Source of the DNA: Cytidiella melzeri
Lineage: Eukaryota > Basidiomycota > Agaricomycetes > Polyporales > Irpicaceae
Assembly (NCBI GenBank): GCA_022592445.1
Contig: JABYQR010000163.1
Location: 34,034-98,033, forward strand
Direction of reading: 5' to 3'
DNA length: 64,000 bases
Shown here: positions 9,629 through 64,000 of the stretch, piece after piece
Numbering within the stretch: the stretch's first letter is position 1
Layout of the letters: every line of letters starts with the position of its first letter
The notes under the pieces: generated by a model
The model's input: the letters and a program-made list of their open reading frames with translations, nothing else
What the model was told of the DNA's origin: nothing
Database searches by the model: none
Position numbers and translations under genes: made by a program

Positions 9629-9843
9629 TGTCAGAATAAACAGTCTGGCACAGGGTAAGCAATAGATAGAATTGTTTGAGCATAGGCAGCGTACCTGGCA
9701 CAGGGTAAGCAATAGATGCTGACCCCTGTGCCGGTCGTGGCCCTTTTATACATTTGATGCGGATGTCCGTGTATGGTAACCGCCATCACCGAGCCCTCCG
9801 CCTCTTTCCTAATCCGTCTCCTTAGGCGGGTCATCACTTGACA
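9629..9843 (-). repeat. 3' LTR of the copia element
   Basis: 215 bp, with TGTCA/TGACA terminal inverted repeats. In element sense, TATAAAAG (9743-9750) lies 26 nt before a 23-nt block (9695-9717) ending CCAG, followed by GTACGC. A second exact copy of the block (9645-9667) ends 16 nt before the LTR end. The pol frame runs about 35 nt into this LTR before stopping at 9809. Confidence 0.95.
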
Positions 9844-11863
9844 CCCCCCCTTGACCCGCTAACACTCCTAGCATCTCCATCCCTCGCGTGTGTAGAATAC
9901 AAGTTAACGGTTTTGTGAATATATCTGCCTTGTTCTCAGTTCCAGCTACTCGTGTGACTGCGATTTTCCCTTCGTTGACGCTATTCCTGATGAAGTGAGC
10001 GCGTATGTCGATGTGCTTCATGCGTGTGTGGCCGTGAGGGTCATGCGTGCAGGCAATTGTGCCGTTATTGTCACAGTATAGTTTCGTAGCCTCTGATTGC
10101 GGGAATCCAAGTTCTTCTAGTAGTTGACGCATCCATATGATTTGACATGCGGCGTGTGAACATGCAATGTACTTGGCTTCGCAGGACGATAAGGCGACTA
10201 CAGCTTGCTGCTTCAAGCTCCATGCGACCGGTGAACGATAGACTATCATCACATATCCAGAGATGGACTTTCTCCCTTCGCCAAAACCCCAGTCGGAGTC
10301 CGTGAATCCGTGGAACAGTGGATACGCTGGGTCGAGGTTTCCGAACGTCAGTCCTAGAGAACGAGTGCCTTGCAAGTATCGTAGGAGGTGCTTGGCTGCT
10401 GCCCAGTGGGTGTGTCCGTAGCATGACATAAATTTGGCGAGTTCGCGCACTGCGTAGGCAATGTCCGGTCTTGTGGTAGTAGCGAGATACATGACCTTCC
10501 CGACAAGAACACAGTACGGGAGATCTTTGACCTCGTCGCGGTCTACTGGAGTTTTAGATGCATCTTCTCGCGACAATGAAACCTTGGGTGGCAGTGGCGT
10601 TGTGGCCGCGTTACTGTACTCCATACCAAAAAGACGTAGAATGGATATCGTGTATGTCTCCTGCGAAAGGAGGATCGAACATCGCTGTCAATTTCTGGTG
10701 ACTTTGCAGCCAAGTAACCACTCAACTTCGCCGTTGTCTGTGATATCGAAGAGGTGCTTGAGGCCTTGCGTCACTGAGTCAGATTCGGCTGAGGAAGAAG
10801 TGGCCAACAGTATGTCGTCGACACTGGTCGCAGACAGAGCTTTGGCACTGTTGACGTCCCGTACATGGACGCTCCAATCCGATTCGCATCTTCGGAAGCC
10901 TAGCGTCTGATATTTTTCGTTGAACTCGAGGTACCACGAGCGACCTGCTTGCTTCAGGCCGTATAGACCTTTGAGCAGACGCCAATAACCGGGTCCTGCG
11001 ATCGACGGCTTCTTCATGTAAATCTCCTCAGTGAGCGGTCCGTTCAGAAAAGCCGTCTTGATGTCGATGTGGCAAAGATGGAGGTCATGATGTGCGGCAA
11101 TGGCGAGAATTGTTCTAATTGAGTCCCATCGGGCTACCGGGGCAAATGTGAAGTTGAAGTCTTGCCCAGGGATTTGTGTGAAGCCCTTGGCCACGAGTCG
11201 CGCTTTGAATCTTGCAATGTGTCCGTCGGCATTGCGTTTAAGATGGAGGACCCACTTGGAGTCCACAGGTTTTCTTCCAGGTGGTACGTCCTTCACTTCC
11301 TCGTATACGCCCTTTACTCGTAATGCCTCAAGTTCCTCATGAATGGCGGCCAACCACTCCTCCCAGTACTTGCTCCGTTCCGCCTCTGAGACGGATCTTG
11401 GATCCTGTTCACTAACGTCGTCGATAGGTGTCGTCGCATTGGCATATGTGTCTGGGTAGAACTCAATCTCATCGCTTTCGATTTCAGTGGTGTTGTAGGC
11501 TGCGTTGAGGGCAACTTTGCGATTCGCAACGAACCCCCCCTTGTCCGAATACGCGCTGTTGTTCATTCTGTAACGCAACGGTAATGTAATTTTATGACGA
11601 CCTGTGGATATTGTATGAGTGTAGGGTACATATTGTCTCTGCAGGAGACGTACCGATGGTCTCTGACGGAGATCCATCAAGCCCCTGGGGGGTGCGTAGT
11701 TCCTCGGGAACAGCCTCAGTGGATGGCTGGGCCATCGACAATTCTCTGTAGGAGAAGAGTCAGGTTGAGGGTGCGTCACTGGACGGTGGGACGTACTTGG
11801 ACAATGCTGTGGCATCGCCATTACGTTTGCGGTAGCGAGCGTCGTTGTCAACCGCGAAGTCAT
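9809..11863 (-). pseudogene. copia reverse transcriptase and RNase H, interrupted
   Basis: Two same-frame pieces separated by TGA at 10688-10690. The first (10688-11863) holds reverse transcriptase, with SKWVLHLKRNADG, FKARLVAKGFTQ, HIDIKTAFLNG and the polymerase SVDDILLATS in place of the usual YVDD. The second (9809-10624) holds RNase H, with YCDNNGTIACTHDP, HIDIRAHFIRN and ADIFTKPL. The stop falls in the conserved LG-KVTR segment just after the polymerase domain. The catalytic pair DD is present, but Tyr to Ser or Val changes and the stop make self-mobilisation unlikely. Confidence 0.9.
9844..9852 (-). other. Polypurine tract of the copia element
   Basis: In element sense the sequence AAGGGGGGG directly precedes the 3' LTR, the expected site of plus-strand priming. 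It lies inside the end of the pol reading frame. Confidence 0.85.
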
Positions 11864-12794
11864 CCCACATGGGACTGAGCGGCAATGTAGGGTTGGACGC
11901 GGTGTGCGTGCTGGTCATGTTGTCGTTGTCTAGGAAGGTGACATCCCTTCGTGAGCGTACAACACGTGCGTTTGTGAACCAAATGAGGTATCCTTTTGCG
12001 TCTTGTGCGTACCCAACAAAACGGCCTTCTTCGCCACGCGGTTGCATCTTATTGAGTGAGTCTGCATCCATTCGGCGCGAGATGACTCGTGAGCCGAATA
12101 TGCGGAAGTGTGATATGTCGGGATTGCGCTTGTGCCAGATGTGATACGGTGTGGTGTTCGGTGGGAGCGCGGACGTGGAGAGCCTGTTGAGAATGTGGCA
12201 GGCGCACTGTACTGCGAGTGGCCAGAAGAATTCGGAGAGGCCGCTGTCGATGAGCATGGCCCTGGCCATCGACGCAAGGGTCCAGTTGGACCTTTCAGCA
12301 ACGCCGTTTTGTGGGGATGCGTCAGGGACGGTCTTCTCGAAAGTGATCCCCTCTTTTTCGCAGTAGATACGAAATTCGCCCTGTAAGAGTTCGGGCGCAT
12401 TGTCTACGCGGAGAACTGCGACCTTTTCGCCCGTGAAGCGTTCCGCGGCCGTTTTCCATCTTGCGAATTCCGTCTGAGCGTCTGAGCGTAATTTTAAGAA
12501 AAGGGGAGTTCTCCACCTTGAGTTGTCATCGACACAGGGCAGAAAATATTTGATACCGCCATATCCAACAGGAAAAGGGCCGCATATGTCAATGTGTATG
12601 CGGAACAGAGGGCGATTGGCTTGGGAGGTGGTGAACTTCGGAAATGGTAATCGTTTGATGTTCGCGCGCGCGCAGGCCTCGCAAGTGTGTGTCGTAGTTG
12701 AGCCAGGCGTGATGCGGATACCGGACGTGGTAGTTGCTAGCTGTTTTACGCCCACATGGCCTAGTAGGCGGTGTAAAAATCCTGTGTGACGGAT
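11760..12794 (-). pseudogene. copia integrase region, frameshifted
   Basis: This frame differs from gag-protease upstream and from reverse transcriptase downstream. Zinc-binding HRLLGHVGVKQL precedes CEACARAN (HHCC-type), then the core with HIDICGPF, the DNAPELLQG motif and SPQNGVAERSNWTLA. The core D-D-E triad is recognisable. The shifts at about 12790 and about 11860 could be ribosomal frameshift sites, but two different shifts plus a later stop fit mutation better. Confidence 0.88.
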
Positions 12795-14464
12795 CGAGGG
12801 GCAGCAGTAGTCGATGGTTCCGAGATGCGATCAATTAAAGAGTGTTGGATGATTGGCGTAGGCGCCTTTGACGTAGAGTCAGAAGTGAACGGACAAGTTG
12901 CGACGTGTAGACGGTACAAATTATTGTCGTCGAGTTGTCCTGTGATGAGAGTTGTCCCATTGAGATCTAAGGAAATGCTGCCGTTCATGGTCCTGGATCC
13001 AACTCCTCTGCGCGCGAGGCAGCCCTGAGACACGAGGTTCATGCGTGCGGTGGGTACATGTAATGCGTCAGTTAATTTCACGACATGTGTTGATCCGTCA
13101 ACTATGGCCCGGAGATAGACATCTCCAGTTCCGACGGCAGAGGTAGTCAGGGTTGATCCAAACCCGCGCACTTTCAAGGGTTGAATTTCGCGATAGTTGG
13201 AGAACACGTTCCGATCAAAGAATATATGCCGGTTAGCTCCCGAGTCATGGAAAACCGAAGGGAGTCTGGTGTGATCTTGAGACAATGCAGCGTTGTGGCA
13301 CTTGATTTCCGTCTTAGGGTCGGCCAGGATCACGGTGTTCAACACGTAGGTTGCTTCTTGTGCTAGAACGCCGGCAGTGTTGGCTTCAACAACAGAGGTT
13401 TCGTTCGCATTGGCCTCACTGGTACTGGCAGTATTGACACTGGAATTCTTCTTTGGTGTAAATGTCTTAGAGACGTTCTTGGATTTCTTTCGTTGATTAG
13501 GGGGCAAGTGAATATCGCGCCTGAATCTCCACCAGTCAGGATATTGGCCGCACTTCTCCCCTCCATACGCGAGACAGTCGTGGATAGTGTGTCCGCGTGG
13601 CCGAGGGCAGTCCGGGTTCACGCACCATTCGGTCATTTTCTTGTTCCTGGGACCATCAGCTTGGCTCGTGGCGGTGGCAGCGACTGTGGAGCGCTTTCTA
13701 TACATTGAATTGGTTTCATAGATCTGAGCAATTACGTCCTCATCATTCTTCGTCTGCGCCCAGTCCTCTTCTTTGATGAGTTCAATGACCCTCGAAGAAG
13801 ACATTGGCCTGCCGTTGTTGAGTGCCGTCGCCATGTCTTGATGGAGTGAACAGGAGAACATGCGCCAACTGTTGCTTGTAGGAATGAGGTCCGCGAGTGT
13901 GCTCGCGAAGTTGGCATCAGAGAACCGATTTGGATCTTGTTCGCAAAGATCCGCATAGAGAGCACAGATCTTGTCTGCCCATTTGCTAACGACCATTTCG
14001 TCTTTGCAGACGAAACTCATGATTTTCTGGTGTAGTGACGCCGCGCGGAGATTGTTCACTGGGCAATATTCTGATTGAAGGATACGCCAAGCTTCTCTCA
14101 CGGTCTTCACGCGGCCAATGAGATGAATTTTCGAACGGGGTATGGCTTCCAACAGAAGGGCTAGTGCGTTCATGTTTGCGTCATACCAAGGCTGTGCTTT
14201 CTCGACAGCTTCATCTACCTCAGCTTCGTTTCCCCTTTTGATCCCCTTTGTCACGATCCCGGTGTCGGGATCTTCCACCTCATCTTCGTACGTCTTCCGA
14301 AGTTTTGGAATCAATGGGGGAATCGATTGTGTTCCCTCGATGTATTTCCAGAGATGAATTGATCTTAGTTTCGCTTCGACTTGTACTACCCATGATCCGT
14401 ACGAATTTGTATCTCCGTCGTCGTCGAGTTTAGGGAGTTTGCTCTGAGAGGACTCATGCGACAT
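12761..14464 (-). CDS. copia gag and protease
   Basis: 567 residues in one frame. The N-terminal about 270 residues are gag-like with a helical UBN2/DUF4219-type region (SYGSWVVQVEAKL, then YDANMNALALLLEAI). A Cys/His cluster CVNPDCPRPRGH...CLAYGGEKC replaces a classic CCHC knuckle. The aspartic protease motif is FHDSGANRHIFFD near residue 415. The frame ends just before the integrase zinc finger, which continues in another frame. The start ATG lies about 110 nt inside the right LTR. Confidence 0.88.
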   Translation of the reverse strand: MSHESSQSKLPKLDDDGDTNSYGSWVVQVEAKLRSIHLWKYIEGTQSIPPLIPKLRKTYEDEVEDPDTGIVTKGIKRGNEAEVDEAVEKAQPWYDANMNALALLLEAIPRSKIHLIGRVKTVREAWRILQSEYCPVNNLRAASLHQKIMSFVCKDEMVVSKWADKICALYADLCEQDPNRFSDANFASTLADLIPTSNSWRMFSCSLHQDMATALNNGRPMSSSRVIELIKEEDWAQTKNDEDVIAQIYETNSMYRKRSTVAATATSQADGPRNKKMTEWCVNPDCPRPRGHTIHDCLAYGGEKCGQYPDWWRFRRDIHLPPNQRKKSKNVSKTFTPKKNSSVNTASTSEANANETSVVEANTAGVLAQEATYVLNTVILADPKTEIKCHNAALSQDHTRLPSVFHDSGANRHIFFDRNVFSNYREIQPLKVRGFGSTLTTSAVGTGDVYLRAIVDGSTHVVKLTDALHVPTARMNLVSQGCLARRGVGSRTMNGSISLDLNGTTLITGQLDDNNLYRLHVATCPFTSDSTSKAPTPIIQHSLIDRISEPSTTAAPRSVTQDFYTAY

Positions 14465-14561
14465 AGTGGAATAGGATGATAGGGGTCGAACTCGAGTGAA
14501 TCGAATGGAGTAGCGGTGCGATAGCGATGCAATAAAATTTATAGCAATTTACGCTGAGCCG

Positions 14562-14573
14562 GGGCTCATAACC
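14562..14573 (-). other. Primer-binding site matching a half initiator tRNA-Met
   Basis: Read on the plus strand, GGGCTCATAACC directly abuts the LTR. It equals the anticodon arm of eukaryotic initiator tRNA-Met, ending just past the CAU anticodon loop. The element RNA would therefore pair with an internal part of the tRNA, as described for Drosophila copia, which uses a half tRNA-iMet as primer, not the tRNA 3' end. Confidence 0.8.
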
Positions 14574-14788
14574 TGTCAGAATAAACAGTCTGGCACAGGG
14601 TAAGCAATAGATAGAATTGTTTGAGCATAGGCAGCGTACCTGGCACAGGGTAAGCAATAGATGCTGACCCCTGTGCCGGTCGTGGCCCTTTTATACATTT
14701 GATGCGGATGTCCGTGTATGGTAACCGCCATCACCGAGCCCTCCGCCTCTTTCCTAATCCGTCTCCTTAGGCGGGTCATCACTTGACA
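14574..14788 (-). repeat. 5' LTR of the copia element
   Basis: 215 bp, apparently base-for-base identical to the left LTR, including the duplicated 23-nt block. Its antisense open frame encodes the same 68 residues as the one in the left LTR. Identity implies recent insertion. Confidence 0.95.
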
Positions 14789-15098
14789 CATCATAAGGCC
14801 GTGTTGACATGTCAAGGACCATTTTGAATAATTGCTTGAACCTGTCTGGATTTGTGAACATCAGCTGTTCCAAGACATTGTTCCCCTGAACGTTGGGGGC
14901 CCGTTTGGTAATGTCAATCTGATCATGTGGATCTGGAAACCTGGCTGTACTGTGTCTCTCCAAGTTTGCACTGATAGAGGAAATGGGATGTTGGGACCCT
15001 ATACTGCTGTATTGGGTGGCAGACACATTCATTGTGTAGAACATGCTGGAAAAAATGGCAGCAAACAACATAAGAGGGGTAAAGATGAAGGGCCACAT

Positions 15099-50940: not shown

Positions 50941-51822
50941 GACAGGTGGTTATGAGCCTACTCAGTAACACATTTTGGGAGCAGGAGACTGTCTCCTGAC
51001 ACATTTCATATCTTCGTATTGGGAGCATCTCTACAGGGGCAAGATGCCAAGATAGATCCTAGGCGTTAGCAAGTAAATGTTAGTTACCATGTAGACAACA
51101 ACACTGCCTAGCCTGTGCAAACTGCCTCACTACATATTAATCAGCTCTGTTCTTTGTAGCACAGGAGCTAATCAAAGACATTTCCAACCTGTGTATTATC
51201 TGATTGTTTGATCAGCACTGCACATGAATTGCAAGATATAATATGTTATTTCAAGTAACTGGTACAACGTCCGTCAAGATTCAGGTACGTCCGAAGCATA
51301 CAAATACAATTGCTTACCTGGTACAACGTCCGTCAAGATGAGGAACACTGTACCAGGTTGTTGGGCAATAAGGCCAATCGGCCATTTCCGAGAACCCCTC
51401 TCCATGCGTCTCCCCGCTTTCCCGTCCTCTCTATGTGCCTTCCCGCTCCCATCATCCCGCCCTCTTTCCTATTCCTCTCCCTCGGGCGGGTCACTGTCTA
51501 ACATAATACTCCTTCAAGTTGCCATTCTAAACCTCATCACACCTCCATTTCCCCAGGTTTTTTCATTGCTCAGTGCCGGCCGGTCAGTCATCCTCATGTC
51601 CACATTGCACTTGCCATGGGTCACTGTACTGAAACTGTTCTCAAAGCTAGCTATCTTTGCAAACCCCTCTCAATTGTCCTTCACCATCCTGTACTGTCAT
51701 CATTTGGTCAGTCACCATCACTGTACATTGCACTTTCCTTGGGTCACTGTTCTGACATTGTTTGTGTCACTAGCTATCTCTTCAAGGCACTTTCAAACCA
51801 CCCGTTGCCATTCTACACCATT
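50941..51822 (+). promoter_or_regulatory. Upstream region of secreted paralogue, interrupted by solo LTR
   Basis: Inverted copy of 15099-15690. The solo LTR sits at the position where the other copy has its TATA-like sequence. Downstream of it, a leader segment (TTGCACTTGCCATGGGTCACTG) is present twice, near 51607 and 51727, where the other copy has it once. Confidence 0.65.
51239..51508 (-). mobile_element. Solo copia-like LTR with TAATA target duplication
   Basis: LTR 51244-51503 (260 bp) with TGTTA/TAACA termini, flanked by TAATA at 51239-51243 and 51504-51508. It resembles the complete copia LTR at its far end (CCCTCTTTCCTA, CGGGCGGGTCAC) and in having a duplicated 22-nt block, but differs elsewhere, so it is a related family. 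A solo LTR forms by recombination between the two LTRs of a full element. Confidence 0.9.
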
Positions 51823-52305: not shown

Positions 52306-55300
52306 TAAGTTTTCAGTCTCACATGGAACTATGTCACACACAGATATTTGAAATCTGAGATAGAAAAAAAAAGAAACTCCTGTATAAGTAGCAAAATGTG
52401 TACATGTATATCTATTGACAAAGATAATTGCTGAAAAATACAACCACAGAGCTCCCTACACACCCTGAATTTAGATGAAACAGATGTGTGTCAGCATATG
52501 ATCACCTGTGGTTCTGAAGCTTGCCACAGGCTGATAAAGGACAATCAGCCTTGTACCCAGATGCTCTGCATGCTGTCATGTGCACTGAATTCCTGTTTGT
52601 GCAGAAGAGCCCATAAATGAAGATAGGTAATATTTGACTATGTTGAAAGCTTGCAAGCACTGGAGTCAAACTTGAAGTGCTTACTGATTGAAAGATCTAA
52701 ACATGGAAGGAGGTGGGATTATGTGTACATGGTTTGCAGCTTGCACCCTCTTGCCTCTTTTGCTCTCATGAAAGCTAGTATTAGCAGGGCCAGCAAGCGG
52801 CAAGTACAATTTTCTGAAGGTTGGATGAGATAGTAATATTTGAGTTAGATTGGTGGGCAACTTTGCTACTGGTAGTAGCTTGACTAAGTAATCTGGTTCA
52901 GAATAGATACTTGAATGGAAAAATATGAAACTGATAGCATATTGAATCAGTAATATAGCCTGAAAGAGTACTTGAACAAGTGACTTTGCTACCAGAGAGA
53001 ACTTCAGTAAACAGCTTTGGTTCTGGTAATAACCTTGCTAAGTAATCTGGTCATGATTATTGACTTTAGTAAAAATGCATTTGCTATTGGTCACAAGCAT
53101 TTGGCTCTGAGATAAAGCAACTGCATTACAATTGACAGAATTGGTTGCAGGAAAAGCAAGAATGTATTAAGATAGTTACCAATAGTAACAAAAGGCTTCA
53201 CATATCTTGTCATTGATCTTGTGCAGTGTTTACTACTGATGCAACAATCAGTTTCAGTGTTCCATTAGCTCTCACTGGTTGGTGTACAGAACAATTTACA
53301 TGCTCTAAGAATAAAGGGATTGGAGATGTTTGAAATAACTCCCAGAACATGGTACATGTGTCCCGTTGATGTCTGAACTGCCTTATCCTCATTAAAACTG
53401 CAACTGGCTGTGTTCTGATGATAACTGAGAGTGACTAATGTCTGTGAAACTTTGAGACACAATCAGTTGCAATGCTCACTGCTGATGCAACCGATTTCTT
53501 TTCATGTAGGGGTTGGAACTGTTTTTATTACAATCAGCTTCCAAAGTACAGGTAATTCTTGCTTTAGGAGCCAATAATATCTGTGGATTGTGTGTTCTGA
53601 TAGTAATTCTTCCTCAGAGAGCAGGCAATGTGCCTGAATTGCTGCTTATTTCTACAATAGATTTGAGTGCCTGGCCAGAACTTTACATCATCTTACTTAT
53701 ATGCCAGCGAGTACATGAGTGGATCAAATTACTTCGCAAGGTTATTACCATGGATATTGACTTTGATATGTGCATTTGTTAATGGTAACATATTTGATAA
53801 GCAACTTGATCTGGAATAAAGTAACTGTATCACAGTTGATAAGTTTGATTGCAGCCAAAGCAGGCATACAATATCAAAGTAGTTACCAATGGTAACAAGG
53901 TGCTTCATATATCTTTTCATTAATCTTGTGCTGTTTTTGATGATGATGTAACAATCAGCTGCAGTGCTCTTTAGCACTTACTGCTGATGCAAAAAATGAC
54001 AACACATGCTTTAAGAATAAAGGGGTTGGAGATATCTTATTGAAATTGGCTCCCAGAACATGTTACATGTTTCCTGTTGATGTATGAACTGCCTCATTGG
54101 AATTGAAATTACCACAGGCTATGTTCTGATGGTAACTGCTGCTCAGAGAGTGACTAATGTTTGAAGAACTTAGCAGAACAATCAGTGGCAGTGCTTACTG
54201 CTGATGCAGCCAGGATTCTACAGTGATTGGAATGTCATGTTATAATCAGCTTTCAAAACACTGGGGATTTCTGCTCAGAGAGCCAGTAATATTTGTGAAT
54301 TGTGTTCTGATAGTAATTCTCACCCAGAGAGCAAGCAATGTGTGTATGTCTACAATATCTTTGAGTGCCTGGCCAGGATCCAACATCATTTTGCTTATGT
54401 GCCAGCAAGTACACGAGTGCAGTTTCAATCTGAGACTTTTTTCAGTGATATGGCCATACCTTGCTCAACCTCACTTCAAATGTAAGGATTTTTGGGCCAG
54501 GATGTTGGTACAAGATAGGGTTATCCAAAAATGTGGAGTATGTATAGATATGTGAGGATGTGCAGTCTGTTACAATTCCTGAACAATGAAGATGAATTGT
54601 TCCAGTGTACACTAGCACATTGATGCTTTTTTCAGATGTGACCCTCTTGTCAAAGCATGGGAATTTGATGGGAGAATACAGACAGTAACAGTTTGAATAT
54701 CAAAGCAATGAATACAGTTGATGGCATCACACTGGCCTTGTTATCAGCCCTTTATAACTTTGGAGCAGAACACTTTTGCAATCAAAATGCACTTTTTGAG
54801 TTTTACAGACTGCATATGGGTACAAAATTGTACAAATTATACATCATTGAATAGCTTTATCTTGTGGCAACATCCAGGCACAAAGCTCCTTGAGCAAGAT
54901 ATGGGAAGTCTAGTGAAAAAGTCACTCAGACTCACATTCAAACTCCACTCTTGCTGACAATGATGTCGAATTATGGTCAGGTACATGTACAGCAATCTAC
55001 AAACATTGCTTGCTCTCTGAGAAAGGAATACAACATGAAGACGTGCCACACATATTATTTTGGTCTGAGCAAGAATCACAAGTAGCTTGTTAGCTAACAG
55101 AACATTTTCAACTCCCACATTCTCAGAGAATGTATCTTTATAGCTGCATCAGCAGTGAGCCCTGCATCTAATTGTTCCACAAAGTTTCACAACCATTAGT
55201 TGCTCTCTAAGCAGGAGTTACAATCAGAACACAGCCTGTGGCAGTTCCGATGGGGCTGAGGCAGTTCAGACATCAACTGGACGCATGTAACATGTTCTGG

Positions 55301-57881
55301 GAGTCAATCTGATGAGACCCCTCAAGCCCTTCATTCTTGAAGCAAGTAATTTTCTGTCATCAGCAGTGAGTTTTGATGAGCACCACAAGTGATTGTTGCA
55401 TCAGAAGTGAACACTGCACAAGATTTATGATAAGATATATGAAGCCCCTTGCTACCATCGGAGACTACTATTATCAATGTATGGCTCCTTTTCCCACATC
55501 AATTGTAGTATAGTCACTTTATTCCAGATCAAGTTGCTTATCAAACGTGTCACCAATAGCAAATGCCCTTACAACAGTCAATATTCATGACCAGATAACT
55601 TGGCAAGGTCCTTACCAGGAACAAATTTGTTTACTGAGGTTCATTTTGGTCCCAAAGTTACTGGTTCAAGTAACTATCTAAGGCTATATAACAAATGTTA
55701 TTTGCTATCAATGACATAATCACTTGTAACCCTGCTCCTCAGTTTACCCAAGATGAATCTAAATCATGTAACATAGTGCAACACCATTATCAAGAAGATG
55801 TGCACTGACATGGATAGTCCAACAGAGACCGTATTTTTCCAACAGTGTCACAAGTTTACAGCCTTAGGCGCCTATCTAGAGCGCTTATTTTCCGGCTAGG
55901 AGTGTTACCGGACCTAACCCTAACCTGGGTCACGTGACATCCTGCCTTATTTATCAATAGTCCAGACCCAAACCCTAGACTCAATCTGGAGCGGTTCCAG
56001 ATCAACCTAGGCTATTATTCTATTGTTCAACTTCCATTGATAGGGATTCCCCAGGGATTCCCCCAGGTCTTATTGTTCTATTGTCTTTCGACTATTGTCT
56101 TCTATCTATTGTTAGGGATTCCCCAGGGATTCCCCCAGTTTCTATTGTTCTATTGTTCCTATTCTATTGTTCTATTGTTCTATTGTTCTAGCTCTATTGT
56201 TCTACGTACCCTGGTCCTTGACAGTTACTCAGGTCCTTGACAGTTACCCTGGTCCCTTATTGTTCTATTGTTACTCCAGCCCCACAGTCACTCCAGTCCC
56301 TAGTGTGGGAACTGGTGCACAGACCACCCAGACACAGTATATATAGTACCCCTTACCCTCCCTGGTTCTGCATCTTGACCTCTTCGTCATTTGCACTGCC
56401 AGGTGAGTTACTCAATGTAACCTAGTATAAACATGATATTAACTTCGTCATTTGCACTGCCAGTATCCGGCCTCTGAGCCTGCTTGCCTGCTCATCATCG
56501 ACTTTGACTTGTTGTCGTCGTTGGAGATCCACTTCCACTTCCACTCCCCCCTCTTCTCTGCCCTTGTTTAGGGTTTAGCAGTATAGCAGCAGTCGCTCCG
56601 CGACATGCACAAGACAACATTTATCTTCATGCTCCACTCTACAAACTTGTTTTACTTCTGCACTCACACCTGTTGTTGCACTTTAAACAATACAGCACAG
56701 TCCCTTGTCTTTTCTGAATGATTCATGCTCCAGTGAAGACAAATCACAGCTCACTATACACTACTCATCAAAGAAGCTATTCACAATTAAATTACCTAGT
56801 CAAGCTGCTACCAGCAGCAAGTTCACTTACAAATCTGGCTCAGAAAGTGATATCTCATTCGATCTTCAGGAATTGTACTTGCTGCTTGCTAGCCTTGCTA
56901 ACAACACAAATTTCCACAGTTCTAATATTAAAGCAACAAACACAGTTGATGACATTCCAATGGGTTTGTATCAGATCATTTCTCTGAATTCCCCATCACA
57001 ATCTATGCAGCAAATGTAAAGCCTGGCATGCTGAAGCATATGACAGCTAACTTAATCATGATAGGCAGAAAAATACACAGTTATATCACACTGGAGTATG
57101 TCAAGCAGTAATCTGGACAACCTGGCAGTGCCATGTGTTTGCTGCAATTTGCAGCAATCACAATTCCTGAAGAATGAAGAAGAATTGTTCCAGTGTGCTC
57201 CAGCACATTGATGCCTTTTCAGATGTGACCTTTTTGTCCCCCAAAGTGCAGGAGTTTGATGGCAAAATACAGACAGTAACAGTGTCAATAACAGAACAAT
57301 GAATACAGCTGATGGCATCATGCTGGCTTTCTTTATAACTTTGTATCAGATCACTTTTGCAATCAAAGTGCAGTTTTTGATTTTAACAGACTGCATATGA
57401 ATACAAATCTGCACATCTAATACACCATTGGATAGCCCTATCTTGTGGCAACATCCTGGTACAAACATCCTGTCAATTGGAGTGGAATTGAGCAAGTTAT
57501 GGCCAGTCTACTGAAGAAAGTTATCCAGACTCATATTCAAACTCCACTCCTGCTCGCAAATGCTGTCAAAGTCTGGTCAGGTACATGCGCAGCAATCTAC
57601 AGACATTGCTTGTTTTCTGAACAAGGAATACAACCAGAAGACATGCCACACATAGTATTGATTCTGAGCAAGAATTACCAGTACTTTGGAAGCTAACCTT
57701 AAATTCTCAACCCCTACATTCTTGGACAATGTAAATTTGTGGCTGCATTAGTAGTGAGTACTGTATCTGACTGTTCCACAAAGTTTCGCAACTGTTAGTT
57801 GCTCTCTAAGCAGGAGTACAATTAGAACACAGCCTGTGGCAGCTCCAATGGGGGTGAGGCAGTTCAGACATCAACAGGTAA
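52306..57881. repeat. Decayed, internally duplicated repeat block
   Basis: 5.6 kb without an intact gene. Direct repeats: about 53510-53720 with 54220-54425, and about 54568-55277 with 57163-57875 (about 710 bp each). Inverted: about 53970-54160 with 55200-55375. Short frames such as 56705-57019 (104 codons) recur in damaged form at 54707 and 57303 with NTVDG or NTADG phrases, so a lost gene family may be involved. The phrase GATGCAACAATCAG is shared with the region upstream of the split secreted gene. Confidence 0.6.
55846..56494 (+). repeat. Gypsy-like LTR remnant
   Basis: Ends are estimated. It has a TATATATA box (56338-56345), runs of CTATTGTTCTATTG, repeats of GGGATTCCCC, and a 21-nt block at 56382-56402 followed by GTGAGT and copied exactly at 56443-56463. 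The same order (CTATTGTTC runs, TATATATA, duplicated block around a splice donor) occurs in the gypsy LTR at 60702-61377, in the opposite orientation. Confidence 0.55.
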
Positions 57882-58302
57882 TGACGAGTTGAGGGAACGC
57901 AGTCACTTAGGCAAGGTGGATGCGCTGTCGTAAACCCACTGCAGACTGTAGGGACCTAGTACACACGGAGACGAGTTAATCCAGGTGCGAAGATGAGAGC
58001 ACAATGAAATATAGAATGTACCTAGTACACACGGAGACGAGTTAACTAGGTAACAGGCATATGAGCATATAACATAATGCAAGAGCAATGGGGGGAATAC
58101 TCACTCCAGGTGCGAAGATGAGAGCACAATGGAGGAGTAGAGAACCAGGGTGAAAGGGTTATATACTACAAGGAAGCTGGCAACGAGGCAGTGTCCGCGT
58201 GATGAAACAAAAGATGCAATCATACTACAAAGGAGTCATGAGACAGGAGACAAAAGAGTGTCTGATAGGGGCGAAGTCCATGAGTAGCGCCGCAAAAGTC
58301 CA
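57882..58302 (-). repeat. 3' LTR of second copia element
   Basis: About 421 bp with TG/CA ends. In element sense a TATATAA box (58159-58165) is followed 28 nt later by block A (27 nt), a 59-nt intron-like insert, block B (25 nt), a 14-nt spacer, and then A and B again without the insert. The left boundary is supported by the parallel sequence at 55277 in the flanking duplication, which lacks the LTR. Confidence 0.8.
58046..58104 (-). other. Intron inside the second copia LTR
   Basis: 59 nt, GTGAGT donor, CCTAG acceptor. Its boundaries are shown directly by the downstream intronless copy of the flanking blocks (57955-58006). Confidence 0.85.
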
Positions 58303-60701
58303 TTACTCCCCCTCGGCGAGACGATACTGGACGAGTCCAAGAGCCTTGCAATGTCGAGCGTGAACATCATGAGGAAGTGGCTTCGTAAAGATGTCAGCAG
58401 GATTATTGGTTCCAGGGATTCAAATCAGTTCGACGAGGCCTTTGTTGAAGCATTCGTGTACTGCGTGCGCCTTGACTCGGGTATGTTTTGAGCGGTGTTT
58501 GACATTTGGAGATTTTGAAGCATCGACAGCACTCTTGTTGTCGCAATAAAGCGTGATAGGAAGGTTGAGAGGGATGTCGATTTGGTCTGCCAAGTCATTC
58601 AGCCATTTGAGTTGTTCTCAGGCTTCGTGTGCTGCGTAGTACTCAGAGTCGAAGGTGGATTTGGCAACAGACTGCTGCTTGCGAGATGACCAGCATACAG
58701 CTCCATTGCCGAGGAAGAAGGCCCAGCCTGAGGTTGAGAGAGAGTTGTCGGTGTCGCTGGCAAAATTAGCGTCGGTGTATCCAACAAGTTGATCTTCTCG
58801 AGTGTCACTGTGGCCTAGACAAAGTCGGAGGGAGGATGTGCCACGGAGGTAGCAAAGGACGTGTTTTGCAGCCTTGAGATGAGACTGCGTGGGGTTTGAC
58901 TGATATTGACAAAGCCGAGCGACTGCAAAAGCAATATCAGGACGAGTACCGAGCATGGCATACATAAGAGAGCCAAGAAGACTGCGGTATTCATGAATGA
59001 GTTTTGGATCGCATTGTGAAGGATCCTCTTCGTTCTTCTCCAACTTGATACCTGTTGGGAGAGGTGTTGACACAGGATTTGTGTCCTCGTGTCCGAAGCG
59101 CTTGAGAACATTGTTCATGTATACCTCCTGGTCCAGGTATATGCGGCGGCTCCCCCTATCCCTAGTGACGCGGATAGCGAGATAGTGCTTGAGTTCCCCC
59201 AAGTCCTTGAGTTTGAAGTGCGAGCGAAGCGCGGTCTTCGTTTCCTTCAGCAGAGCGATGCTGTTGCCCATCATGGTAAGATCGTCGACATAAACAATGA
59301 GAATTTCGAGGTCTCCCCCTCGTCGACGAACAAAAATAGAGACGTCACCAGCGTCATGACAGGTGAATCCAAGTTGTTCGAGGCATGCCTTTAGCGTGAG
59401 GAACCATTGACGTCCTGCTTGCTTGAGGCCATAGATTGCTTTCCGAAGGCGACATACTTTGCCTTCGGCCACCACGAAGCCTTCAGGTTGCTCCATATAA
59501 ACCTCCTCGTCCAAAGATCCGTTCAAATACGCCTGATGGAAGTCGATTTGGTGGATTTCCCAGTCTAGAGTGGCTGCCAGGGCGACGAGATATCGCCAAG
59601 ATTCCAGACAGGCGACGGGAGCGAAGGTGTCTTCGTAGTCGATGCCTTGAATTTGCTCAAATCCATTAGCTACCAGCCGTGCCTTGAAACAGTCAACATT
59701 GCCGTCCTTGTCGAGTTTGAGCTTGTATACCCATTTACTCTTGATCGCCTTGCGACCTTGAGGTAAATCGACGAGGTCCCACGTCCCTGATTCTTGGAGA
59801 CCTTTGAATTCAGTCTCCATTGCCGCGTACCAGTCATCCTTGTCCTCAGAACCCATAGCCTGTCTGTATGAACGAGGCTCCCCCTGAGGTGTTACAGCCG
59901 CTGCTAGGACTAAGTCAGCTTCGTCTGCGAGGACTGCTGCTGCTCGGTTTTTGCGGTTGTAAGGGAGCTTGTTGCCTCGAGATTGTGTAGCCCGTTGAAC
60001 ATCATCCTCACTTGCTGCCTGCCAGATGGAATCCAGTCGCTTTTGTTCGCGCGTAGTGCGGCGGGGAAGCTGATGAGCAGGATTCGATATGGGCAGATAG
60101 TCGTGTGCTGAGGGACGATTGGGATTTGATTTGACTTTGGGTGATTCTACAACTCGAGACGACGAAGGGGTTGGTCTGGACGGTGAGGATGAGAATTCAG
60201 TCTTCGGCGTGAAGAACTGATCTGGTGCCTTTCCTTTGCCCTGCGAGATGCTAGGGTATGGTGAAGGTGTGGCTGGCGTGGATGGTCGAGGAGTGGAAGA
60301 GGGGCGCGGTATCTGTGACGGCATCTGCGAGGATGGTGTCCATTCCATACGAACGTCCGTAGATGGTGCGCTGAGAGGAGGCAGTTGCTGAGTGGTAGGC
60401 ACATGTGGTGTGATAGTAGCCGGCTGCTGAGAGGGCGTGTGAAAGGATGGAGTTTCAAGTTCGAAGTAAGTGGGCGGTGTTGGTTGAGGTGCGCTCGAAC
60501 GCAGGGGTGTAGAGTTAGGACGGTTAGGAAAGACTGTTTCGTCGAATACTACGTCTGTACTCGCAACAATTTTATGGGTATGTTTGTCCCAGAGGCGGTA
60601 ACCTTTAGAACCCGCTTCTGACACGGAGACAGGGCTCGACGTGACAAACAGGGACACAATGTGTACGACAACGACGAGGTGGTGGCAGGCGTGTAGCACA
60701 A
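58303..60701 (-). pseudogene. Second copia element: integrase end, reverse transcriptase, RNase H
   Basis: Starts in the C-terminal part of integrase (KGYRLWDKHTHKIV), then a Pro/Ser-rich linker, reverse transcriptase (WVYKLKLDKDGNVDCFKARL, FHQAYLNGSLDEEVYMEQP, the YVDDLTMMG catalytic motif) and RNase H. Two TGA stops interrupt it, at 58618-58620 (after YYAAHEA) and 58420-58422, before ADIFTKPLP. The frame ends TAA at the polypurine tract GAGGGGGAG. Upstream it is cut at 60701 by the nested gypsy LTR, so gag, protease and the integrase core should lie beyond that element. Confidence 0.9.
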
Positions 60702-61377
60702 TGCTCTCACCAACTATAAACCTTATTCAGGTAGCTAGCCCAGTAAAGACCAAGTTAGTATTGGGTACTACCAGCTATGTAGTACAGAGGGGGTTTGCTT
60801 ACCTAGCCCAGTAAAGACCAAGAGGTCGAGATGGGGGGCTAGGAGCGTACATGTAGCAGTATATATAGACTTCAGGGACCTGCGCACAGACCATGTTGAG
60901 GGCAGGCTTTGCAAGAAGCCGTGTGAACGAAGAACAAAAGAACTACCTAAAGGAGAACAATAGCTATTGTCTAGACCTTGCCAAGAACTCTACCCGTGAG
61001 AGAATCTATCTAAAAGGAGACCAACTATTGTATTCCATTCCCACACCTGTGAGAACATCCTTCCATAAAGAGAACAATAGGGAAAGAACAATAAGGAGCC
61101 CATGTGGATGGTATCTATGACGTCAAACCCTAGCTATGGGCTGAGCCATGTGTCTGTAGCCATGTGGTCTTACTTAAGCTAAGTCACATGCCAGTGTGAC
61201 GTAGTAGCAAGTAATGTGACCGTGTGGAGCGTCTAAGCCACGTGATACGGGCGCTTAATAGACGTGCAAAGGAGTTTATGCAGAGAGAATTGAAACTAGG
61301 TTGTAGCCCGGAGTTTTACAGATAAAAACAAGAGGTAAATTGCGAAAATTTAAGGGCTAGTCAGGCCATCCATGACA
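60702..61377 (-). repeat. 3' LTR of the gypsy chromovirus
   Basis: About 676 bp, TG...CA ends (TGTCATGG at its 5' end in element sense). Contains TATATATA near 60860-60867 and a 20-nt block at 60803-60822, followed by GTAAGC, repeated at 60735-60754. A perfect TACTAAC branch motif (60754-60760) lies just before the second copy. Confidence 0.8.
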
Positions 61378-61542
61378 TTACCCCCCTCCTAAAATCGAGC
61401 GTCCTCGCGAAGCATCACTGTGCTGTGGTGATAGAGGTCTTCTACCCGTCTACAGGGATTCAGCAGAATTGCCCCGATTGTCTAGTCAGAAGGATGCTAG
61501 GAAGTTTCTCCCCTTCTGGTGTCGTTGACTCGACGTTACCCG
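61378..61542 (-). other. Gypsy 3' untranslated region with polypurine tract
   Basis: In element sense AGGAGGGGGG (near 61381-61390) directly precedes the LTR and is the probable plus-strand primer site. Confidence 0.75.
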
Positions 61543-64000
61543 TCAGTGTGATGTTCTTGAGATATCCAGACCGATGTGTTTGCCTTCATCCCAGCTAAGA
61601 TCATATGTAGATGGATAGATCGTGCGAAGGAAAGCGGGGTCGGTTTGGGTATTGAATTCCCGAAAGTGCGAGCGGAGATCCGCAAAGAGTGAAGCTTTGA
61701 TGACCCGGGGCGCTCCGGGGTTTGCGTTGTAGAAGTCGTCAATCGCTTCTTGACTATTCTCGAGGTTTTCTACTGGTTCCCAGCTATTGTGTCCGTCTGA
61801 ATACCCTTCCCATTTGACTAGGAATTGCAATTTCTTCCAACGTCCGTGTAGCCTGCTGTCTAGCACCTTTTCGACGACGTACTGTTCTTCTCCTTCTATG
61901 ACAATAGGATCAGGAGGTGGAGGTACATCTTTGCCGTTGTCGTGCCAGGGACTTAGACGGTTGATGTGGAAGACGGGGTGGATTCGGAGATAGCTGGGTA
62001 GATCGAGTTTGTAATCGAGATCGCCAATGCGTTCGATGACCTTGTACGGGCCGAGCTGTCGAGGACCGAGTTTAGGGGTAGCCTGATGAATCTGGACGTT
62101 CTTAGCGTTTAGCCAGACCATGTCCCCTACTTGGAAGACGCGTGGAGAACGCTTCTCAGACTCGTAAAGTTGCTTCATCTTTTCTTTGCTTAGACGAAGA
62201 GCTGCTTCGATCTCCTTTTGTACTCGAGCCATATTATCAAGGCGCTCATCGAGTGAAGGGATATTGCTTTGCTTGCCAACTGGTATAGTGAAGTCGGGGC
62301 GATATCCGTAGATGACTTCAAACGGTGTTTGTGAGTTACCCGCATGTACTCGCGAGTTGAGTGCAAACTCAGCCGCCGGCAGATGATCGACCCAGTCGTC
62401 TTGTCGTTGCTGACAGAATAGACGTAGATACTGTTCGATATCCTGGTTTTTGCGTTCGACTTTGCCATTTCCTTGCGGATGATAGGCGGTCGTAAAACCA
62501 GTCTCTATGCCTAGGCGGTGATAGAGCGCACGCATGAAGCGTGCTGCAAACTGGGGTCCTCGGTCAGAGAACACCTTCTTGGGAATGCCGTGAAGTCGGA
62601 ATACTTCTTTGTAGTGTAGATCGGCAATCCCCTCAGCGTTAACCTTAGTGGTAGTAGGGATGATGTGCGTTTGATCGGAGTAATGGTCGACGTAGACCGC
62701 GATCGAATCAAATCCCTTAGAGGGTGGCAGCTGAGTGATGAGATCTACTCCGACGTGTTCCCAAGGTCCGGCCGGAGTTTCCTGAGGCTGTAGTACTGCT
62801 TTAGGGTGTGGAGCTGACTTGTAGCGTTGGCAGCGATCACAACCTAGTACGTAAGTCTCGATGAAGGCATTCATCTTCGGCCACCAATAGTGTCGTGAGA
62901 CTAGCTCTATGGTGCCGTGTTTGCCCGGATGACCAGCCGCGGGTGTGTCATGGCAAGATTTGACGATTTCGTGACGGAGCTCTTTGTTGTTAGGGATGTA
63001 GAGTTTTCCCTTGTAATAGATGAGCCCGTCACTCTCTTCCCATTCGAGTAAACCGCCGACAAGTTTGCGAGGACCCTTTTTGCGAAGGGTAGCGAGAGCT
63101 TGTGCGACTTCTGCTTCTTGCTCCGTGCATTCTCGGATCTTTGATTCGAGTGGAGAAGCAGTGGCGAGCGCACTGGTAGCGAGGATCCGGAAGTGTTCCG
63201 GTTTCAGTACCACCTGATCCTTGTTGTCTTCTTCGTCCGTGACAGCGTGAGAGTGAAGACGAGAGAGAGGATCAGCATGTATCATGGTACTACCGGGCTT
63301 GTGTACCAACACAAAGTCGAAGTCAGCCAAGAGTAATGACCAACGTGCTTGACGTCGAGTGAGGTGTTGCGCAGTCTTCCAGTACTGCAGGTTTGCGTGA
63401 TCTGTCCAGATCTCAAACGGTTCCTTGAGTCCCTCAAGGTAGTGGTGCCAATCTTTGAGAGCCTCGGTGATGGCTAACATCTCCCGATCAAAGATTTCGT
63501 AGTTACGCTCAGCTTCAGTCATAGATGCGGACCGGTAGGCGATAGGGTGATAGAATCCATCTTCCTTTGATTTCTGGGAGATGATTCCACCGGTCGCATA
63601 GCCCGAGGCATCGACTTCTAGACGTGTAGGGAGTTCAGGGTCCCAGACTGCCAAGATAGGCTTAGTGGTAAAGGCCTTCTTTAGCATCGTGAAGGCAGTC
63701 TGTTGTGCTGGACCCCAGACGAACGGTACGTCCTTCTTAGTCAGGTCGTGTAGAGGCCGTGCGTGCTTTGAGAAGTCTTGAATGAAGCCGCGGTAGAAGT
63801 TGGCAAACCCGATGAATCCTCTAACTTCTTTGAGGTTCTTGGGTGTGGGCCACGTAGAAACTGCTTGGACTTTGACAGGGTCCATAGCTACTTCGCCGGC
63901 ACGAATGATCAACCCGAGGTATTCAATCTCAGATTTCTCAAATTCGCACTTTTCCGGCCGAAGGTAGAGGTCATGCTGCTGAAGTCGCTCGAGGGACTTC
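61543..64000 (-). CDS. Ty3/gypsy chromovirus polyprotein, partial at window edge
   Basis: Open through the right edge; the N-terminal part (gag, protease, most of reverse transcriptase) is outside. In order: end of reverse transcriptase (LRPEKCEFEKSEIEYLG), RNase H (VDASGYATGGIISQ, ending with the HADPLSRL phrase), integrase zinc finger (HPGKHGTIELVSRHYWWP, then CDRCQRYK), integrase core (VGVDLITQLP, DRGPQFAARF, YHPQGNGKVERKNQ; D-D-E intact), a GPY-type module (KLGPRQLGPYKVIERIG) and a chromodomain (YVVEKVLDSRLHGRWK, then VKWEGYSDGHNSWEPVENL). Chromodomains guide integration to marked chromatin. No stops in this part, so the copy may be young. Confidence 0.95.
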   Translation of the reverse strand, partial: KSLERLQQHDLYLRPEKCEFEKSEIEYLGLIIRAGEVAMDPVKVQAVSTWPTPKNLKEVRGFIGFANFYRGFIQDFSKHARPLHDLTKKDVPFVWGPAQQTAFTMLKKAFTTKPILAVWDPELPTRLEVDASGYATGGIISQKSKEDGFYHPIAYRSASMTEAERNYEIFDREMLAITEALKDWHHYLEGLKEPFEIWTDHANLQYWKTAQHLTRRQARWSLLLADFDFVLVHKPGSTMIHADPLSRLHSHAVTDEEDNKDQVVLKPEHFRILATSALATASPLESKIRECTEQEAEVAQALATLRKKGPRKLVGGLLEWEESDGLIYYKGKLYIPNNKELRHEIVKSCHDTPAAGHPGKHGTIELVSRHYWWPKMNAFIETYVLGCDRCQRYKSAPHPKAVLQPQETPAGPWEHVGVDLITQLPPSKGFDSIAVYVDHYSDQTHIIPTTTKVNAEGIADLHYKEVFRLHGIPKKVFSDRGPQFAARFMRALYHRLGIETGFTTAYHPQGNGKVERKNQDIEQYLRLFCQQRQDDWVDHLPAAEFALNSRVHAGNSQTPFEVIYGYRPDFTIPVGKQSNIPSLDERLDNMARVQKEIEAALRLSKEKMKQLYESEKRSPRVFQVGDMVWLNAKNVQIHQATPKLGPRQLGPYKVIERIGDLDYKLDLPSYLRIHPVFHINRLSPWHDNGKDVPPPPDPIVIEGEEQYVVEKVLDSRLHGRWKKLQFLVKWEGYSDGHNSWEPVENLENSQEAIDDFYNANPGAPRVIKASLFADLRSHFREFNTQTDPAFLRTIYPSTYDLSWDEGKHIGLDISRTSH

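Follow-up and report, generated by a model that had tools for sequence, protein, structure and literature searches.

A predicted intron in the R region of Cytidiella melzeri LTR retrotransposons ends in a copy of its preceding spliced exon

The window analysed here, a stretch of 64,000 nucleotides from Cytidiella melzeri (contig JABYQR010000163.1), contains LTRs in which a predicted intron ends in a copy of the exon or exons before it, joined as they would be after splicing. This layout is real and is widespread in the genome of this fungus. The edges of the repeats coincide with AG/GT, with AG and with the expected start region, their two copies change in concert, and young LTR pairs carry the layout as well. 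A retroelement RNA that is spliced should lose its intron when it is copied into DNA. Several families seem to store the spliced exon inside the intron, which would make splicing compatible with faithful inheritance of the intron. We propose, with a probability of roughly 0.6, that introns of the R region survive reverse transcription because the last of them ends in a copy of the preceding spliced exon(s). A broader statement, which we consider about an even bet, is that two superfamilies of LTR retrotransposons share an undescribed device: an R-internal intron whose 3′ end copies the upstream exon, onto which the cDNA of the spliced leader would land, restoring the intron and rewriting the copy, possibly with the help of a U3 arm in some families.

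Layout of the window LTR and its copies in the genome

In the 3′ LTR of a copia element (family 1; Table 1), block A is followed by a 59-nt insert, block B, a short spacer and then A and B again in fused form. The initial annotation had described this order and its coordinates, and direct reading of the minus strand confirmed both. It had also given the fused copy as 52 nt; the copy is exact to both halves and, as the next T matches too, runs for 53 nt to 57954. The claim that the 59-nt insert looks like an intron is borne out as well, with a GT donor, an AG acceptor, a branch-like motif and a short length, the sequence features of spliceosomal introns, all present. A second predicted intron, absent from that annotation, comprises the spacer together with the fused copy and hints at a way in which the layout might be renewed. 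Its edges, AG/GT and AG, lie at the repeat ends, and its donor is weak in families 1 and 2 (GTACAT/GTACAG). A1 starts 34 nt after its TATA, the end of B2 lies 75 nt from the end of the LTR, and the purine-rich GCCGAGGGGGAG precedes the LTR. Family 1 belongs to Ty1/copia by its RVT_2-type reverse transcriptase. A gypsy element (G1, window 60640-63999) appears nested in the family-1 copia pol, and the pol ORF is cut at its start. The region adjoining the LTR (window 52700-57900) is dense in imperfect direct and inverted repeats, which are about 70-96% alike.

Table 1. Features of the LTRs and elements in the window
Feature	Position	Strand	Description
3′ LTR of copia family 1	57879..58305	-	427 bp, TAATG...CATTA
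TATATAA	58159..58165	-	read from sequence; 27 nt upstream of A1
A1, predicted first exon	58105..58131	-	27 nt
Predicted intron 1	58046..58104	-	59 nt, GTGAGT...TGCTCA...CCTAG
B1, predicted second exon	58020..58045	-	26 nt; ends CTAG, then GT
Spacer	58007..58019	-	13 nt (14 nt if B1 is taken to 58021)
A2, first half of spliced-form copy	57980..58006	-	exact copy of A1
B2, second half of spliced-form copy	57954..57979	-	exact copy of B1
Predicted intron 2 (spacer + fused copy)	57956..58021	-	66 nt, GTACAT...CTAG
Truncated copia pol ORF, same element as window LTR	58618..60699	-	Pfam RVT_2 1.2e-72
5′ LTR (matched part), TGACA-type copia element	14574..14789	-	216 bp
5′ LTR parts	X1 14640-14662; predicted intron 14590-14639 ending in X2 14590-14612; U3 arm 14663-14686	-	
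3′ LTR (matched part), TGACA-type copia element	9629..9844	-	100% identical to 5′ LTR over 216 bp
3′ LTR parts	X1 9695-9717; predicted intron 9645-9694 ending in X2 9645-9667	-	
G1 X1	60803..60822	-	window scan and copies
G1 predicted intron	60735..60802	-	68 nt, GTAAGC...TACTAAC...CTAG; last 20 nt (60735-60754) = X2
Gypsy chromovirus ORF upstream of G1 LTR	61543..63999	-	Pfam RT_RNaseH, rve, Chromo
G2 X1	56382..56402	+	window scan and copies
G2 predicted intron	56403..56463	+	61 nt, GTGAGT...CCAG; last 21 nt (56443-56463) = X2
X1 of further LTR-like unit (51318 unit)	51318..51339	-	window scan
51318 unit predicted intron	51259..51317	-	59 nt, GTAAGC...CCAG; last 22 nt (51259-51280) = X2

Other copies of the family, which the initial annotation had suggested looking for, were sought in the 49.7-Mb genome around the window. 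All 40 family-1 LTRs that were scored, the window copy among them, have the A-intron-B-spacer-A-B layout; since these were drawn from 253 candidates, the family-1 copy numbers are lower bounds. The alignment covers all 427 positions in 36 of the 40 fetched copies. A related copia LTR (family 2), adjoining a family-1 copy on contig C645 and 76% identical to family 1 over the matched part, has the same layout with different A and B sequences, and 40 of its 218 candidates were scored (96-100% identity). A pattern of intron 1 with the start of B occurs at 145 places in families 1 and 2 together. Among the distinct LTRs, the GT..AG ends of intron 1, its TGCTCA motif and the AGGT at the end of B1 are each found in 37/38 of family 1 and 42/42 of family 2, and the AGGT at the end of B2 in 38/38 and 42/42, respectively. 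On C645, a family-1 element (L019/L020) lies inside the U3 of a family-2 LTR with the target duplication CTGTA. Upstream of six LTRs (L034, L035, L037, L040, L041 and L043 of G000), the initial 131-132 nt of the family-1 LTR recur as a tandem array with a period of 137; as these LTRs share their flanks, they may be copies of one host repeat.

Seven family-1 LTR pairs are flanked by matching 5-bp target duplications and differ at 0-8 of about 429 positions. Both LTRs of each of these young pairs have the layout, which therefore passes through retrotransposition. The primer-site motif GGTTATGAGCCCC, which we take to resemble a half tRNA-iMet site, follows the 5′ LTRs. Searches with a single tRNA pattern for a tRNA complementary to the primer-binding site, and with a single pattern on viral contigs, gave 0 matches each.

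The initial annotation had also asked whether some copies consist of A-intron-B or of A-B only. A first copy without the intron was found by exact pattern at only one place in families 1 and 2, namely in the middle unit of a triple-unit LTR (L109 on C114, A-I-B-s-AB-s-AB), and the corresponding exact pattern for part of the TGACA group described below gave 0 matches. The lack of intron-less LTRs in these exact-pattern searches fits landing of the cDNA on the second copy and equally an intron that is never spliced. The intron-B-U5 pattern without a second copy occurs in one LTR, the single-unit L110 on C414. Because its partner on the same contig (L184) has the usual two-unit form with both copies, L110 was likely changed after, or late in, insertion. 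L109 and L110 show that unequal transfer or recombination also happens.

A simpler form in other LTR types

A simpler form of the layout, consisting of exon X1, a GT donor, a spacer and a second copy X2 ending in AG, so that the 3′ end of the predicted intron repeats the exon in front of it, occurs in a wider copia group with LTRs ending in TGACA and in three more LTR types. To begin with the window, exact repeats of at least 17 nt at a spacing of 35-170 nt were collected with no condition on splice sites. Seven of the eight close repeats end within 2 nt of AG/GT on one strand and have AG at the same place in the second copy; the remaining one is block A, whose end coincides with the donor of intron 1. 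With the splice-site condition included, the true window gave 7 repeats and the reversed and complemented windows 0 each, so these AG/GT ... AG repeats are not due to chance. Two of the seven form the LTR pair of one TGACA element. Another (56041) was rejected as an LTR unit for its low complexity and its poor donor GTCTTA, despite an AG/GT end.

The TGACA group was examined through 19 LTRs picked by their end alone (TGACA before GGTTATGAGCCCC), among about 100 listed of 417. X1 followed by GTACGY or GTATGT and then by X2 is present in 16 of the 19; X2 in these has at most one mismatch to X1 and ends in CCAG (CCGG in one). The remaining three comprise two LTRs of another family and one deletion. 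Further copies were fetched with a pattern requiring the ends of both copies, and X1 equals X2 in 27 of the 32 distinct LTRs compared. The 14 distinct X1 sequences differ on average by 4.6 of 23 bases. When X1 and X2 were re-paired 5000 times, no trial gave as good an agreement. X1 begins 30-35 nt after TATA in 33/33 LTRs (in 16 of these loci the search pattern itself fixed a range for this distance), hence the repeat spans the stretch between the likely cap site and the splice site. The predicted intron of 48-57 nt consists of the spacer and X2.

The TGACA element of the window has copia domains between its LTRs (RVT_2 4.5e-47 at 10688-11863). As the LTRs are identical over 216 bp, this nearly intact element (9629-14789) is a young insertion; several ORFs together encode its pol domains. 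Of 20 LTRs examined with the GGTTATGAGCCCC motif, 17 do not end in TGACA or TGATA, and these 17 had no exact repeat of at least 11 nt downstream of TATA; one of them (L129) has a TGACA-type remnant further upstream. In a TGACA-ended LTR on C37 (L144, 77610-77940), U3 runs straight into the first base of X, without TATA, X1 or spacer, which reflects either a deletion or a misplaced landing of spliced strong-stop cDNA.

Of the remaining types, G1 lies downstream of an ORF with RNase H, integrase and chromodomain, which makes it a gypsy chromovirus as far as the position of the ORF links it to the LTR. The branch-like TACTAAC of its predicted intron spans spacer and X2. G2 is placed putatively with the gypsy chromoviruses by the similarity of its leader to that of G1. 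X1 equals X2 in 9/10 copies of G1 (from 40 scored of 1352 candidates) and in 6/7 copies of G2 (from 40 scored of 694 candidates). X is nearly invariant inside G1 and inside G2 in the sampled copies, so that for these two types concerted change rests on the difference between G1 and G2. The third type is an LTR-like unit at 51318, which has no TATA within the 160 nt inspected. In the TGACA group, G1, G2 and the 51318 unit alike, the second copy has no GT after it.

Concerted change of the two copies and alternative explanations

For families 1 and 2, 80 distinct LTRs (38 and 42, respectively) were compared, after L090, L109, L110 and two others had been left out of 85 distinct sequences. Within an LTR, A1 and A2 differ on average by 0.50 bases in family 1 and 0.48 in family 2, and B1 and B2 by 0.87 and 0.40 bases. 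Between the families, A differs by about 7 bases and B by about 6. Since the copies are nearly equal within an LTR although A and B have diverged between the families, the spliced copy is being rewritten. Random re-pairing within a family was as good in 2 of 2000 trials for family 1 and in 0 of 2000 for family 2. The same behaviour is visible in single alleles. In family 2, B1 and B2 share the same allele (CTTCG, CTCTG or CTTCA) in 39/42 LTRs. In family 1, one element (C6) has the variant CAC..TTT in A1 as well as A2 of each of its LTRs, and two other LTRs have ATCA in both A1 and A2. On contig C96, two family-2 LTRs about 5 kb apart (L067 and L106) have the B alleles CTTCG and CTCTG, possibly marking a recombinant element.

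Agreement is not complete, as both blocks are fully identical in only 12/38 family-1 and 21/42 family-2 LTRs. Many of the differences between the copies are, by eye, C-to-T changes at CpG. In the table of mismatches shared by paired LTRs, 12 of 16 contigs had both LTRs represented, of which C645 was unusable. A mismatch common to both LTRs was found on three contigs (C727, C42 and C78, where the LTRs are 12.8 kb apart and may not belong to one element), and in all three copy 1 has T and copy 2 has C. This gives weak support to the predicted origin of inherited mismatches in X1.

The 59-nt insert was never lost from copy 1 and never gained by copy 2 in the 80 LTRs. Because the copies co-vary while the intron stays in copy 1, A and B are homogenised across an intron that copy 2 never received. 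This bears directly on a first alternative, that a tandem duplication in R has been homogenised without any splicing, through reverse-transcriptase slippage, unequal strand transfer or DNA gene conversion. The triple-unit L109 and the single-unit L110 are the kind of products which such events would leave. However, this explanation has to keep the insert in place in 80 distinct LTRs while both A and B are homogenised, and to put the repeat ends at AG/GT and AG in unrelated families, and we regard it as unlikely.

The initial annotation had proposed that a reverse-transcribed spliced leader was joined behind an unspliced one within this LTR. The first half of this proposal fits the data: the fused copy lacks exactly the GT...AG segment, the left edge lies at the expected start, and A and B change together across the intron. 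Its second half, one event in one LTR, does not hold, as two copia families share the layout and other LTRs of the genome have a simpler version. A one-time accident of this kind, a single joining of spliced strong-stop cDNA behind an unspliced R followed by passive inheritance, would still account for how the window LTR is arranged and where its left edge lies. It is nevertheless improbable, given that the two copies changed together after the families split and that unrelated LTRs have the same design.

Introns can arise by tandem duplication of an AGGT-containing segment, with one splice site supplied by each copy and the second unit turned into the intron. Such a duplication could be the origin of the design, and GT does follow both copies in families 1 and 2. 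A repeat whose copies supply the splice sites is common to both cases, but here a spacer separates the copies, the second copy in four LTR types has no following GT, and homogenisation has continued. As duplication would also leave unexplained the absence of intron 1 from the second copy and the concerted change, it is a very poor candidate for the whole pattern. Finally, two tandem A-B units of which the first received an unrelated 59-nt insertion would formally show the same block order. This is hardly credible in view of the concerted change, the other LTR types of the same design, and the occurrence of the insert at one position, with GTRAGT, TGCTCA and AG ends, in families 1 and 2, which are about 76% identical.

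A possible route through reverse transcription

The proposed mechanism would be the simplest that fits the sequences of all the families. Transcription would start at A1, or at X1 in the simpler families, and the introns of the 5′ leader would then be removed, so that X1 is joined to U5. In families 1 and 2, X1 itself would hold one more intron, and its removal would fuse A and B. The strong-stop cDNA made from this leader would read X1-U5. The 3′ end of the RNA would retain its intron, possibly because the exon after X2 would be short, and the cDNA could anneal there to X2, its exact match in spliced form. Synthesis would continue through the spacer, X1 and U3, and the new LTR would regain the intron, its X2 having been copied anew from the spliced X1 of the parent. 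Should intron 2 of families 1 and 2 stay unspliced, the model would instead require the reverse transcriptase to jump from one repeat to the other in these families. This model would explain the AG/GT edges, the left edge at the likely start, the second copy without intron 1 and the concerted change.

If true, the mechanism adds one step to the standard strand-transfer scheme, as outlined in the available parts of PMC12789967 and PMC4668388. It would also provide a mark, readable from the genome itself, of leader introns and start sites in LTR elements, and a DNA record of splicing, in which copy 2 has the look of the parent's spliced leader.

In their pol domains, LTR pairs, 5-bp target duplications and purine tract, the elements resemble other Ty1/copia and Ty3/gypsy (chromovirus) elements, with which they presumably share the usual strong-stop strand transfer. 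They differ in that R has a predicted intron and a spliced-form exon copy, and in that the 5′ and 3′ R would not be the same in the RNA. HTLV-1, BLV and foamy viruses have a splice donor inside R, and hence in both LTRs, with an acceptor far downstream and a subgenomic spliced RNA. A splice site in R is thus common to both, whereas in the present elements R contains the predicted acceptor as well as the donor, and the predicted intron includes a copy of the exon. Spliced BARE1 and copia RNAs also involve a short intron in the RNA of an LTR retrotransposon, which is predicted in our case; as far as the cited account goes, the BARE1 intron has 104 nt, lies at the end of gag, outside the LTR, yields a Gag-only RNA and has no exon copy (PMC3735527). 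The predicted introns of family 1 and of the TGACA element lie within the LTR and not in a coding region. A literature survey at the level of titles and abstracts found no intron wholly within R and no restoring exon copy, a result which does not prove that none has been described.

In LTRs of the TGACA group, X1 is immediately preceded by a U3 segment whose sequence is complementary to X and co-varies with it. The capped 5′ end of the RNA would lack this arm and the 3′ end would have it. Folding of arm and exon gave a mean of -23.4 kcal/mol for cognate and -19.5 kcal/mol for non-cognate pairs; 0 of 5000 re-pairings were as good, although only 6/14 arms had their cognate exon as best partner. 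Complementarity between the 30 nt before the exon and the donor region beats shuffled sequences in G1, G2, the 51318 unit and 14/14 TGACA representatives (p 0.002-0.021), but is no better than shuffles in families 1 and 2 (p 0.067-0.433). The arm could prevent splicing of the 3′ copy or keep the cDNA away from X1. Masking of the donor by the arm found no support in full folding, where the donor was no freer in the 5′ context (mean unpaired 0.28 in 5′ and 0.29 in 3′ context, 14 LTRs), and a role of the arm therefore stays a lead. In families 1 and 2, the intron-1 donor was even more paired in the 5′ context in 6/7. From 5′ to 3′ context, the mean unpaired fraction changed from 0.48 to 0.34 for X1 and was 0.40 and 0.39 for X2.
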